The notes under the pieces are model-generated. The model was not told the DNA's origin, made no database searches, and worked only from the letters and a program-made list of their open reading frames with translations. From contig JAEOSG010000006.1 of NCBI GenBank assembly GCA_016840485.1, positions 1 through 38,511 of the forward strand: 38,511 bases of DNA, in the 5' to 3' direction. Made by a program: the position numbers and the translations under genes. Source of the DNA: Candidatus Baldrarchaeota archaeon (GTDB lineage Archaea > Asgardarchaeota > Baldrarchaeia > Baldrarchaeales > DXJG01). Numbering within the stretch: position 1 is the first letter of the stretch; the number at the start of each line of letters is the position of its first letter. This document shows, piece after piece, positions 2,061 to 14,715 of the stretch.

Positions 2061-4367
2061 GTGAGGCAATCCTATAAAAGTGTGGCGCCAAGAATGATAA
2101 GGAAACCACAGCAAAATTTTGTTGTACAACCGCTGATTAAAACAAATGCAGTAGAATATCGAAAATATCAAGCAGAAATAGTAGAGAAATGTCTAGAAAG
2201 GAATACTCTAGTGATACTTCCCACAGGCCTAGGTAAAACCATAATAGCCGCAATAGTTGCTGCCCACCGCCTATTAAAGTATCCAGATTCAAAATGTATC
2301 ATGTTAGCTCCCACCAAACCTTTAGTAAACCAACACTGTGAAATTTTCAGAGCTGTTTTAAACCTTCCCTCTCATGAAATTAATGCCATAACTGGAACCG
2401 TAAGGCCTCAGAGTCGAGTTAATGTTTTAAAGTCTTCAAAAGTAATATTAATGACTCCTCAAACATTAGAAAACGATTTAATTACTAGTCGATGTGATTT
2501 AAAGCCAGTTTCATTATTAATTTTTGATGAAGCTCATCGAGCTGTCGGCAATTACCCATATGTGTATATAGCGAAAGAATACATAAAACAAGCAGAACAT
2601 CCATTAATACTTGGTTTAACCGCGTCACCGGGATCAGAAAAAGAGAAAATAGAAGAAGTCTGTAGAAATCTTTATATTTCACAAATAGAAACACGAACAG
2701 AATATAGTCCTGACGTGAGACAATATATCCATCCAATTTACATGGAATGGAAAACTGTAAAATTGCCATCCGATTTTTTGAAAATAAAAACACTTTTAGA
2801 AACTCTTTTTAAAGAAAGATTAAAGATTTTAAAAGAATACGGTTATTTAGAGAGTTCAGACATTAAAAAAATTAGCAGAAAGAATTTACTTGAACTCAGA
2901 GCGAAAATTCAGAGCGAAATTGCAGAATATCTTCGACCACCCTCGAGTCTTTTCTCTGTTTCCTTGGCAATCGCTGAAGCATTAAAGTTGTCCCACATGC
3001 TGGAACTCCTAGAAACACAGGGAATAACCCCAGTTGCAGAATATCTTACAAAGATGAAAAAAGAAGCCGAGCGGCCTGGGCATCAAAAAGCTACAGAAAC
3101 CCTATTGAACGATGACAAACTCTTGGAAGTAGAGAAATTAATACAAAAATTAATAAAGGAAAATTACGAGCACCCAAAAATAAAGGAAACCATTAAAATA
3201 ATCTCAAGACATCTGCAATCAAATGAGAAAGCAAGAATTATAGTGTTTACAAAGTTCAGAAACACAGCAAAAAAGTTAGTTGAAGAATTAAGACAAATCG
3301 ATGGAATTAGGCCTGCGCGATTTGTTGGCCAAGCTTCAAAAGATGTGGATATGGGGCTCACACAAAAAGAACAGTTAAGGATTTTGGGAGAATTTAAAGA
3401 AGGCATATATAATGTGCTAGTGGCTACAAGTGTAGCGGAGGAAGGGTTAGACATAGCTGAATGTGACCTAGTTATTTGTTACGATGCTGTTCCAAGTGCA
3501 ATACGTCAAATTCAAAGAAGAGGTCGAACAGGGAGAAGGCGGCCTGGAAGAATGGTAGTACTCATAGCTGAAAAAACTAGAGATGAAGCTTATTTTTGGT
3601 CAGCAAAGCGCAAAGAAAAGGTTATGAAACAGACTATAAAAGAAATTTCAACCAAACTTCACGTGACAAGTATTAACACAACAAGTAAATCCTTAGATAC
3701 TTTCATAAAATCACAAGAAGAATTAAAAGTATATGTAGATAATAGAGAACTTAGATCACAAACCGCAAAGTATCTTGCGGAACTTGGAGTTAAACTTATA
3801 CCAGAACAACTTCCCATAGCAGATTACATAGTTTCCGATAGAGTTGCTATAGAGCGAAAAACTACTGAAGACTTTTTACAGTCAATTATCGACAAAAGAC
3901 TATTTCAACAACTTACAGACCTCAAAAGAAACTACACAGTACCCATATTAATAATAGAGGGCGAAAATGTCTACAAAGGAAAAGCAATATCTCCAGATGC
4001 TGTCAGAGGTGCATTAGCTAGCATAATTCTCGACTTTAACGTACCCATCCTATGGGCAAAAACCCCCAGCGAAACAGCACACCTAATATACGCTATAACA
4101 AGGCGAGAGCAAAAGAAAGAAAAACGATATCCCTCGATAAAAAGGGAAAAAATGCCGTTAAGCGATAGAGAACTTCAAGAATACATTGTTTCAGGACTTC
4201 CCGGGATAGATCTTACCCTTGCAAGAAGGCTGCTGAAAGAGTTAAAAACCGTAGAAAACATATTTACCGCATCAGAGAACACACTCAAAAAGGTTAAGGG
4301 AATAGGCGAGAAAACGGCTAGAAAAATTAGAGAAATATTAACTCTACCATACAATGAAACCGAATAG
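2061..4367 (+). CDS. hef: Hef: fused SF2 helicase / XPF-type nuclease
   Basis: Archaeal Hef, related to FANCM and XPF, which remodels and cuts stalled or branched replication forks. Helicase motifs are in order: LPTGLGKT (Walker A, near residue 55), DEAH, LTASPG, and the motif VI region QIQRRGRTGRR. After a linker comes the XPF nuclease domain with VDNRE and the catalytic IERKTTEDF motif. Two helix-hairpin-helix elements follow (GLPGIDLTLARRLL and VKGIGEKTARKI), giving the complete family architecture at 768 residues. The start is GTG at 2061; an ATG twelve codons in is an alternative. The gene is monocistronic, between two genes on the opposite strand. Confidence 0.95.
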   Translation: MRQSYKSVAPRMIRKPQQNFVVQPLIKTNAVEYRKYQAEIVEKCLERNTLVILPTGLGKTIIAAIVAAHRLLKYPDSKCIMLAPTKPLVNQHCEIFRAVLNLPSHEINAITGTVRPQSRVNVLKSSKVILMTPQTLENDLITSRCDLKPVSLLIFDEAHRAVGNYPYVYIAKEYIKQAEHPLILGLTASPGSEKEKIEEVCRNLYISQIETRTEYSPDVRQYIHPIYMEWKTVKLPSDFLKIKTLLETLFKERLKILKEYGYLESSDIKKISRKNLLELRAKIQSEIAEYLRPPSSLFSVSLAIAEALKLSHMLELLETQGITPVAEYLTKMKKEAERPGHQKATETLLNDDKLLEVEKLIQKLIKENYEHPKIKETIKIISRHLQSNEKARIIVFTKFRNTAKKLVEELRQIDGIRPARFVGQASKDVDMGLTQKEQLRILGEFKEGIYNVLVATSVAEEGLDIAECDLVICYDAVPSAIRQIQRRGRTGRRRPGRMVVLIAEKTRDEAYFWSAKRKEKVMKQTIKEISTKLHVTSINTTSKSLDTFIKSQEELKVYVDNRELRSQTAKYLAELGVKLIPEQLPIADYIVSDRVAIERKTTEDFLQSIIDKRLFQQLTDLKRNYTVPILIIEGENVYKGKAISPDAVRGALASIILDFNVPILWAKTPSETAHLIYAITRREQKKEKRYPSIKREKMPLSDRELQEYIVSGLPGIDLTLARRLLKELKTVENIFTASENTLKKVKGIGEKTARKIREILTLPYNETE

Positions 4368-8776: not shown

Positions 8777-9080
8777 TAATGCATCATAATATATACCAAT
8801 TCCTTTACATCAATATATCCCTTATTATGAGTTCTTGGTCTATAAGTACCAACCTGTTTTCTTATCTCTCTAATTATTCTTTTGGGACCAATATTATTAA
8901 AGTAGCTGCAACAGGGATGATCTAGGATTAATAAGTAAAGATTGCCAACTGTTGTTTTAAAATCAGAAATATAAAAAATAAACAAATTATTCATAGTATG
9001 GATAGCATATCGGCCGAAATTTTGTGCAAGCTTGGTGCGGGGGGTGGGATTTGAACCCACGCAGGCCTACGCCAACGGGT

Positions 9081-9096
9081 TTCTCCGCATTGGGCT
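9081..9096 (-). other. Anticodon-loop intron of tRNA-Leu (16 nt, position 37/38)
   Basis: The exons join as CCCAGG | A between the stem strands ACGGG and CCCGT, the canonical 37/38 position. The 3' bulge is AA^A directly next to the anticodon stem. The central helix is weak as written (CCCA with GGAG); it would improve if base 33 were U. The exact cut is inferred from position and the bulge rule. Confidence 0.65.
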
Positions 9097-9112
9097 CCTG
9101 GGCCCGTCGCCT

Positions 9113-9135
9113 CTTGTCGCCGAACACACGTGGCT
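9113..9135 (-). other. D-arm intron of tRNA-Leu (23 nt)
   Basis: The exon junction is ...GGTCAA | AGGCG.... The fold is GGTC, bulge AA^A, stem GCC/GGC, then GACA, bulge AG^A. GTC/GAC forms three pairs of the central helix, with one G-A mismatch. Removal restores the GCC/GGC D stem, which the unspliced gene lacks. Confidence 0.8.
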
Positions 9136-9219
9136 TTGACCTGGCTCGGCCACCCCCGCAGGCTATGAATTTCCTTAAAATAACCGAGTTTTCTTTGACC
9201 TAGTATTTAGTGTAATCAA

Positions 9220-11153: not shown

Positions 11154-11243
11154 CTCCGGCTCAACACCACAGCAATTAGTTAATCAACATTGTGGCGCCG
11201 GGGGTGGGATTTGAACCCACGCGGCCCGTAAGGGCCAGCGGCT

Positions 11244-11273
11244 GTCTCTTAACCCAGCCCCGATAAAGTAGAT
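11244..11273 (-). other. tRNA-Ser intron 3, canonical 37/38 (30 nt)
   Basis: The exons join as CTCGAG | A in the anticodon loop. Central helix CTCG/AGAG has three good pairs plus a G-A mismatch, with 5' bulge AG^A and 3' bulge AC^A. The inner part folds weakly. The location fits the usual archaeal intron site. Confidence 0.78.
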
Positions 11274-11282
11274 CTCGAGGCC

Positions 11283-11301
11283 CTAGCGGGCATCTATACC
11301 T
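11283..11301 (-). other. tRNA-Ser intron 2, anticodon stem position 28/29 (19 nt)
   Basis: The exons join as GGC G GC | GGC, rebuilding the anticodon stem GCGGC. The fold has central helix GGCG/CGCT, 5' bulge GC^A, inner stem GGTA/TGCC with loop TAGA, and 3' bulge AG^G. The position is non-canonical. Confidence 0.8.
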
Positions 11302-11307
11302 GCCGCC

Positions 11308-11330
11308 TTAACCGGCTTAAATAAAAGCCA
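11308..11330 (-). other. tRNA-Ser intron 1, D arm (23 nt)
   Basis: The exons join as GGCCAA | GGCG. The BHB fold has central helix GGCC/GGTT (two G-U pairs), 5' bulge AA^T, inner stem GGCTT/AAGCC with loop TTATTT, and 3' bulge AA^G. It lies in the 3' part of the D arm, as does the tRNA-Leu intron of the same length. Confidence 0.85.
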
Positions 11331-11631
11331 TTGGCCTGGCTAGGCTACCCCGGCACCGAATTTTCATTAACTTACTATGTTAATGTCTAAATAAAGATAA
11401 CTAATAAAAATTGGCTTGAACGTTATCCGTTAATCTTAGGGTTGAGCCTCTAAGTAGAATATAGCTAATTATATTAAACGGTTAACGGTTATATAGGAAA
11501 AATATGTTCAAACTATATTTTCTACTTTTACTTAGTTTTCGATTTTTATTAATCTAATATGGGTTAATTAATATTTTGAACATCTTTCTTTATCATTAGT
11601 TCTACGTAAACTTTTGTAAGAACTTACATCA

Positions 11632-13350: not shown

Positions 13351-14715
13351 ATGCAAGAGAAATTTAAAAAAATTGTTCAGCAAATTGTTGAAGAAGGATA
13401 TCAGATATCTCCCGAAGCTTTAGAATATTTATCGTCTTTAAATGACGTGCAACTTAATGTATGTTTGGATAGAATTCTTTCAGCTGCAAAAAGAGAAGGC
13501 GTGTTTGTTATTACACTTCCATTTGTAAAAGAGGTCTTGAAAGTAGAGGAAAAGAAGAAAATTGATGTAGAAAAAATTCCAGCTAGATTAGAGATTGTAA
13601 GTTCTCCTTCAACTCAAATAGAGTTAAGAATTACAAGTGATATCTTAGTAAGTTATTTTCGTGAAAAATATAGAAAATTGAAGAGGATTTTGGAAGTTAG
13701 ACACACATATCAAAATATAAAGGAAGTTATCGAAAGAGGACGTATTGGAGAAGATGTAAAGATTATTGGAATGATTTTGGAGAAAAGAGAAAACGACGAT
13801 ATAAAATTTGTCGTTGAAGATGAGACAGGAATACTAAACATTAGAATTCCAAGACAAAATTCTCATCTTTTTGAAGAAGCAAAACGATATTTACCAGACC
13901 AAGTAATTTACATAGAAGGAAAACTGGTAGAAAAGCAGCTAATAGAAGTAAAGAGTCTAGATCTTCCAGATATTTTACCTGCACATAAACCAAAAGGAAC
14001 GAAAACGGACATATGTGTCGCATTTATGTCTGATCTGCATATAGGACATCCTAATTTTCAAGCAGAAAGTTTTGAAGGTTTTTTAGATTGGCTTAAGAAC
14101 GATGGTAGGAAGAAAATAAAGTATCTTTTAATTGCTGGTGACTTAATTAATAATCCTAAAGAAGAGGAGAATTACGATGTACTTTATAATTATCTTAAGA
14201 AAGTTCCTACAAGCATCGAAGTCGTTATAATCCCTGGAGATGCTGATGCAACCCTTCCAATACTTCCACAACCACCGATAACAAGAAACATTGAAAAAAT
14301 TACCAAAATGGATAACGTTAAAGTTTTAGGTAACCCCGCCTTAGTAAAAATTCATAACATATCGGTTCTTTTGTTTCACGGATTAGGTACGGAAAAACTA
14401 ATGGAAAAAATTAACTTAAAGACGCCCATTGACCTTGCAAAGTTTTTATTAAAATCACGGCATTTGTGTCCAGGTTATGGAACAATTCCTTTAATACCCC
14501 ACTCCGGAGACCTACTTACAATAAGCAATATTCCTGATATTTTCCATTTAGGACATTTTCATCTTGTTTTTCATGATCAATATAATGGTGTGCATATAAT
14601 TTCTTCAGGAGCATGGATCCCTTCAAATGAGAAAAATTCGAATAAATTACCTTGTCAAGTGCCCATAATGAATTTAAAAAATTTTGAAGTGAAAATTTTG
14701 ACATTTGTTAAGTAA
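13351..14715 (+). CDS. polB: DNA polymerase D small subunit (DP1)
   Basis: Small subunit of the archaeal replicative polymerase PolD. The N-terminal domain is helical, an OB fold lies near 130-210 (IGEDVKIIGMILEKREND, VIYIEGKLVEKQL), and a calcineurin-type phosphodiesterase domain occupies 225-450. Motifs seen are SDLHIG, AGDLIN, LLFHG and LGHFH. The motif normally written GNHD reads PGDADA here: the Asn and the catalytic-type His are replaced, so the 3'-5' exonuclease may be weakened or lost. At 454 residues it is slightly shorter than euryarchaeal DP1 proteins. The gene lies 8 bases over the end of the convergent orc1/cdc6 gene. The large subunit DP2 is not in the window. Confidence 0.92.
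   Translation: MQEKFKKIVQQIVEEGYQISPEALEYLSSLNDVQLNVCLDRILSAAKREGVFVITLPFVKEVLKVEEKKKIDVEKIPARLEIVSSPSTQIELRITSDILVSYFREKYRKLKRILEVRHTYQNIKEVIERGRIGEDVKIIGMILEKRENDDIKFVVEDETGILNIRIPRQNSHLFEEAKRYLPDQVIYIEGKLVEKQLIEVKSLDLPDILPAHKPKGTKTDICVAFMSDLHIGHPNFQAESFEGFLDWLKNDGRKKIKYLLIAGDLINNPKEEENYDVLYNYLKKVPTSIEVVIIPGDADATLPILPQPPITRNIEKITKMDNVKVLGNPALVKIHNISVLLFHGLGTEKLMEKINLKTPIDLAKFLLKSRHLCPGYGTIPLIPHSGDLLTISNIPDIFHLGHFHLVFHDQYNGVHIISSGAWIPSNEKNSNKLPCQVPIMNLKNFEVKILTFVK

Follow-up and report, generated by a model that had tools for sequence, protein, structure and literature searches.

To our knowledge, three introns in a single tRNA gene is the known archaeal maximum. Within the Thermoproteales, individual tRNA genes carry up to three introns (PMC4033280), which are of the bulge-helix-bulge (BHB) type, lie at canonical as well as noncanonical positions, and are served by an (αβ)2 splicing endonuclease (PMC4033280, PMC8450103). 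In the (αβ)2 endonuclease of A. pernix, Lys44-Pro45-Arg46 has been reported to be important for cleavage (PMC12397907). Among Asgard archaea, a 2024 study described introns in 92-95% of the tRNA genes of Atabeyarchaeia and Freyarchaeia, with over half carrying several, often at noncanonical positions (PMC11291895). No publication on tRNA introns in Baldrarchaeia was found in the literature searched.

We investigated a tRNA gene in a 38,511-nt stretch of DNA (hereafter, the window; contig JAEOSG010000006.1, assembly GCA_016840485.1) from an Asgard archaeon of the class Baldrarchaeia. A previous, sequence-only reading had proposed a tRNA-Ser(CGA) gene with three introns, two of them at noncanonical positions, regarded triple-intron tRNAs as known mainly from Thermoproteales and a few deep lineages, and took the finding of one beside PolD and Hef genes as a help in placing the organism. 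The tRNA identity, the anticodon, and the number, lengths, and positions of the introns are all borne out by the sequence, by two parsers, and by orthologues, and Pfam confirms the PolD (DP1) and Hef genes. The comparison with the Thermoproteales does not hold for the host: it lies outside that group, its nearest named relatives being Candidatus Baldrarchaeota archaeon MAG_95, from the same genus, and Candidatus Baldrarchaeum yapensis, from another family of the same order. PolD and Hef are insufficient by themselves to place the organism, which is placed by the identity of its orthologues to those of named genomes. For comparison, we used the 193,042-base DP1 contig of MAG_95, which corresponds to DXJG01000001.1, and a 24,680-base contig of B. 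yapensis, which corresponds to JAEOSH010000030.1. The features of the window considered below are the following.

2061 to 4367, plus strand: Hef-like DEAD helicase/ERCC4 nuclease (Pfam).
9033 to 9159, minus strand: neighbouring tRNA-Leu(CAG) with two introns (9113 to 9135 in the D arm; 9081 to 9096 at 37/38); Rfam match of 37.5 bits; synteny marker.
11193 to 11354, minus strand: tRNA-Ser(CGA) gene with encoded CCA, three introns, and a mature length of 90 nt; from the sequence, the parsers, and the syntenic MAG_95 orthologue.
11244 to 11273, minus strand: intron 3, 30 nt, at the canonical position 37/38; present in MAG_95 (38 nt) and B. yapensis (28 nt).
11275 to 11277, minus strand: anticodon CGA (reads UCG), from the parser output.
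11283 to 11301, minus strand: intron 2, 19 nt, at 28/29 in the anticodon stem; present in MAG_95 (19 nt), not in the B. yapensis orthologue.
11308 to 11330, minus strand: intron 1, 23 nt, at 22/23 in the D arm; relaxed BHB without an outer helix; at the same place in MAG_95 (22 nt) and B. yapensis (16 nt).
13351 to 14715, plus strand: small subunit (DP1) of DNA polymerase D (PF04042), 64% identical to that of MAG_95; synteny and taxonomic marker.

The tRNA-Ser(CGA) gene is 162 nt long and runs from 11354 to 11193, with introns at gene positions 25-47, 54-72, and 82-111. On the minus strand, with the introns bracketed, it reads GCCGGGGTAGCCTAGCCAGGCCAA [TGGCTTTTATTTAAGCCGGTTAA] GGCGGC [AGGTATAGATGCCCGCTAG] GGCCTCGAG [ATCTACTTTATCGGGGCTGGGTTAAGAGAC] AGCCGCTGGCCCTTACGGGCCGCGTGGGTTCAAATCCCACCCCCGGCGCCA. 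Removal of the 23 nt at 22/23, the 19 nt at 28/29, and the 30 nt at 37/38 restores in the parsers a perfect 90-nt class-II cloverleaf, in which the acceptor (7 bp), D (4 bp), anticodon (5 bp; GCGGC/GCCGC), variable (5 bp), and T (5 bp) stems are all fully paired. The spliced product is a normal class-II tRNA-Ser, with the anticodon loop CTCGAGA, U33, a discriminator G, and an encoded CCA.

Every junction lies in a BHB-like motif of relaxed form, with 4/4, 4/4, and 3/4 central pairs at the first, second, and third introns, respectively, each accompanied by an inner or an outer helix. Intron 1 forms four central pairs (two GC and two GU) and an inner helix of 5 bp; intron 2 likewise forms four central pairs and a 5-bp inner helix; and intron 3 uses the anticodon stem as its outer helix, with 3/4 central pairs here, 4/4 in MAG_95, and 3/4 in B. 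yapensis, the mismatch in the present gene being a single G-A. The 37/38 BHB is absent from the minimum-energy folds of the Ser(CGA) precursor. A small ambiguity attaches to intron 3, as cuts at 37/38 and at 38/39 yield an identical mature RNA.

DP1, tRNA-Ser(CGA), and tRNA-Leu(CAG) keep their order and relative orientation between the window and MAG_95, and the MAG_95 tRNA-Ser(CGA) gene contains introns of 22, 19, and 38 nt placed as in the window gene. The two mature tRNAs are identical at 89 of 90 positions; identity between the DP1 proteins is just 64%. The introns differ more, with four changes in the 19-nt intron, and three substitutions and eight gap positions between the 30-nt and 38-nt introns. 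MAG_95 nevertheless shares, without a single change, an 18-nt core of the 37/38 intron (TTTATCGGGGCTGGGTTA). The B. yapensis gene contains 16 nt at 22/23 and 28 nt at 37/38, and its anticodon stem is uninterrupted at 28/29, a natural empty site. Hence, all three junctions recur in MAG_95 and two of the three in B. yapensis, where the third is empty; the 28/29 intron was either gained in the genus of the window genome or lost in B. yapensis. No further Ser(CGA) gene was found in 20 additional Asgard stretches.

Three introns bring many degrees of freedom, and the gene contains 83 BHB-like candidates, so that the three-intron reading could in principle be a chance parse. Our exhaustive parser allowed up to three introns per gene and took as BHB-like any intron with a minimum of three of four central pairs and with either an inner or an outer helix of 3 bp or longer; it found any parse in just 1 of 200 interior-shuffled sequences. 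In the gene itself it accepted three solutions that differ solely in the D-arm intron, the 28/29 and 37/38 junctions being unique. Moreover, a second, scored parser that allowed four introns ranked the same solution top (margin 1.0). The decisive evidence that the gene is real beyond chance comes from the syntenic MAG_95 orthologue, with its same junctions, and from the empty 28/29 site in another family, and we regard the probability of a chance parse as negligible. One of the accepted solutions leaves the gene real but moves its D-arm intron from 22/23 (23 nt) to 17/18 (24 nt), which would alter the D loop slightly. In both this genome and MAG_95, the 17/18 cut has an outer helix of 4 bp and forms 3/4 central pairs, whereas in B. 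yapensis it retains only 1/4, and the 22/23 register has 4/4 in the window gene, MAG_95, and B. yapensis alike. The 17/18 register, which arises when this gene alone is considered, is therefore decidedly unlikely.

The gene might also be a decayed remnant of a tRNA-Ser gene, with UCG read instead by tRNA-Ser(TGA), a gene for which is present in the same genome and whose product could do so by wobble; in keeping with this, ARAGORN found no tRNA at the locus. Against such decay, every stem is perfect, the exons match at 89 of 90 positions those of a relative whose DP1 has diverged to 64% identity, the gene is maintained in synteny, and the CGA isoacceptor is retained in another family of the order, all of which makes a pseudogene very improbable. 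Our census of the genome revealed no second Ser(CGA) gene among the 42 tRNA genes found, the other serine tRNAs being GGA, TGA, and GCT. We are highly confident that the locus is a functional, single-copy tRNA-Ser(CGA) gene with introns at 22/23, 28/29, and 37/38, predicted to be spliced by the organism's own enzymes.

This census covered a 3.2-Mb draft genome of 333 contigs (91% complete, 8% contamination) and combined 12-base T-arm matches with Rfam matches to give the 42 readable tRNA genes, some hand-corrected; misparses spotted by inspection (a tandem Ala-Val, Leu-CAG, Tyr, and several in MAG_95) were excluded or hand-corrected. Introns occur in at least 32 of the 42 genes (∼76%), and 20 have two or more: ten genes have none, 12 have one, 14 have two, and six have three (Ser-CGA, Ser-GCT, Leu-CAA, Lys-TTT, Asn-GTT, and Tyr-GTA). 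Some of the intronless genes may come from contaminating contigs. The rarity ascribed to triple-intron tRNAs is not sustained, and the Ser(CGA) gene is unexceptional, given at least five other three-intron tRNA genes in the same genome and the 2024 description of dense multi-intron tRNAs from other Asgard archaea (PMC11291895). None of the tRNA genes parsed contains more than three introns. An apparent four-intron tRNA-Tyr in MAG_95, with exons of 2 nt and 4 nt, proved to be an artefact; a single ∼56-nt intron at 37/38 reduces it to three introns with full pairing. The tRNA-Tyr(GTA) gene, of 190-191 nt, has introns at 30/31, at 37/38 (∼56 nt), and at the boundary between the anticodon stem and the variable region, and this arrangement is kept in three congeneric genomes. 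In another Asgard family, tRNA-Ser(TGA) genes of 184 nt apparently contain three introns, the first near 8/9.

By sequence inspection, the neighbouring tRNA-Leu(CAG) gene has no intron in B. yapensis, two in this genome, and three in the syntenic MAG_95 copy, which points to a fast turnover of tRNA introns. The Ser(CGA) gene exemplifies how abundant tRNA introns are throughout this genome, and close relatives continue to gain and lose them. Position 33 of tRNA-Leu(CAG) (window position 9101) is C instead of the near-universal U, as it also is in MAG_95; the B. yapensis orthologue, which has no intron, has U33. The C might be edited to U, or the change might be tolerated.

The hexamer GGGGCT, chosen after the fact, occurs in 4 of 52 introns of this genome, against 0.2 expected by shuffling. 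The introns concerned belong to Ser-CGA (11244-11273), Ser-GCT, Leu-TAA, and Leu-CAA, all of them class-II tRNAs. In B. yapensis, GGGGCT again falls within introns of these four tRNAs, two of which carry it in an intron at another position. That selection rather than chance put the hexamer there, either as a recognition or folding element or as the signature of a single mobile intron family restricted to class-II tRNAs, seems unlikely.

The genome contains two PF01974 genes, which encode separate catalytic and structural subunits, as well as one gene for the RtcB ligase; two PF01974 genes were found in most of the 59 genomes searched. The 184-residue catalytic subunit matches that of A. pernix (3p1z_B; E 2e-45), aligns with it end to end, and retains the catalytic Tyr, His, and Lys, with the motifs DFAVY, GIDHAPF, and VRKKF. 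Its loop GIRKPKAPSF aligns with DVEKPRGADF of A. pernix and thereby places Lys-Pro-Lys where the latter has K44-P45-R46 (PMC12397907). As in A. pernix (PMC12397907), the structural subunit is without the loop. In the subunit encoded here, a Val replaces the catalytic His. The RKPK signature was also found in catalytic subunits of the other Asgard families examined (three families in all), and hence the 'Crenarchaea-specific' loop is not restricted to Crenarchaea. This enzyme set fits a predicted pathway in which an (αβ)2 enzyme would cleave relaxed BHB motifs and RtcB would then act as the ligase. In the mechanism that we propose, the Ser(CGA) transcript would fold into three BHB-type sites, and the organism's own (αβ)2-type endonuclease would cut them before RtcB joined the exons; the Lys-Pro-Lys loop in the catalytic subunit of this endonuclease is of a kind that has been linked to relaxed substrates.

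The expectation that standard tRNA finders would miss or mistype the gene is borne out for two programs: ARAGORN called no tRNA anywhere in the window, and Rfam at default settings missed the Ser(CGA) gene, matching it (31.6 bits) only with a 251-base stretch and permissive filters. tRNAscan-SE 2.0 was designed to accommodate tRNA genes that contain two or three introns (PMC8450103). Asgard tRNA censuses made with finders that disallow several introns would be incomplete.

The locus resembles the tRNA genes of the Thermoproteales (PMC4033280, PMC8450103) in having no more than three BHB introns per gene, at canonical and noncanonical positions, and a predicted (αβ)2 endonuclease, but it belongs to another phylum. 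With Atabeyarchaeia and Freyarchaeia (PMC11291895) it shares a majority of interrupted tRNA genes, often noncanonically so, and many multi-intron genes; the class is different, and ∼76% of the tRNA genes found here are interrupted, versus 92-95% there. Our analysis adds a further Asgard class to those with heavily interrupted tRNA genes, and the three-genome series of Ser(CGA) genes with three, three, and two introns, together with the empty site, suits the study of tRNA intron gain and loss. The presence of a 'Crenarchaea-specific' type of loop in an Asgard endonuclease bears on the coevolution of intron load and enzyme specificity.
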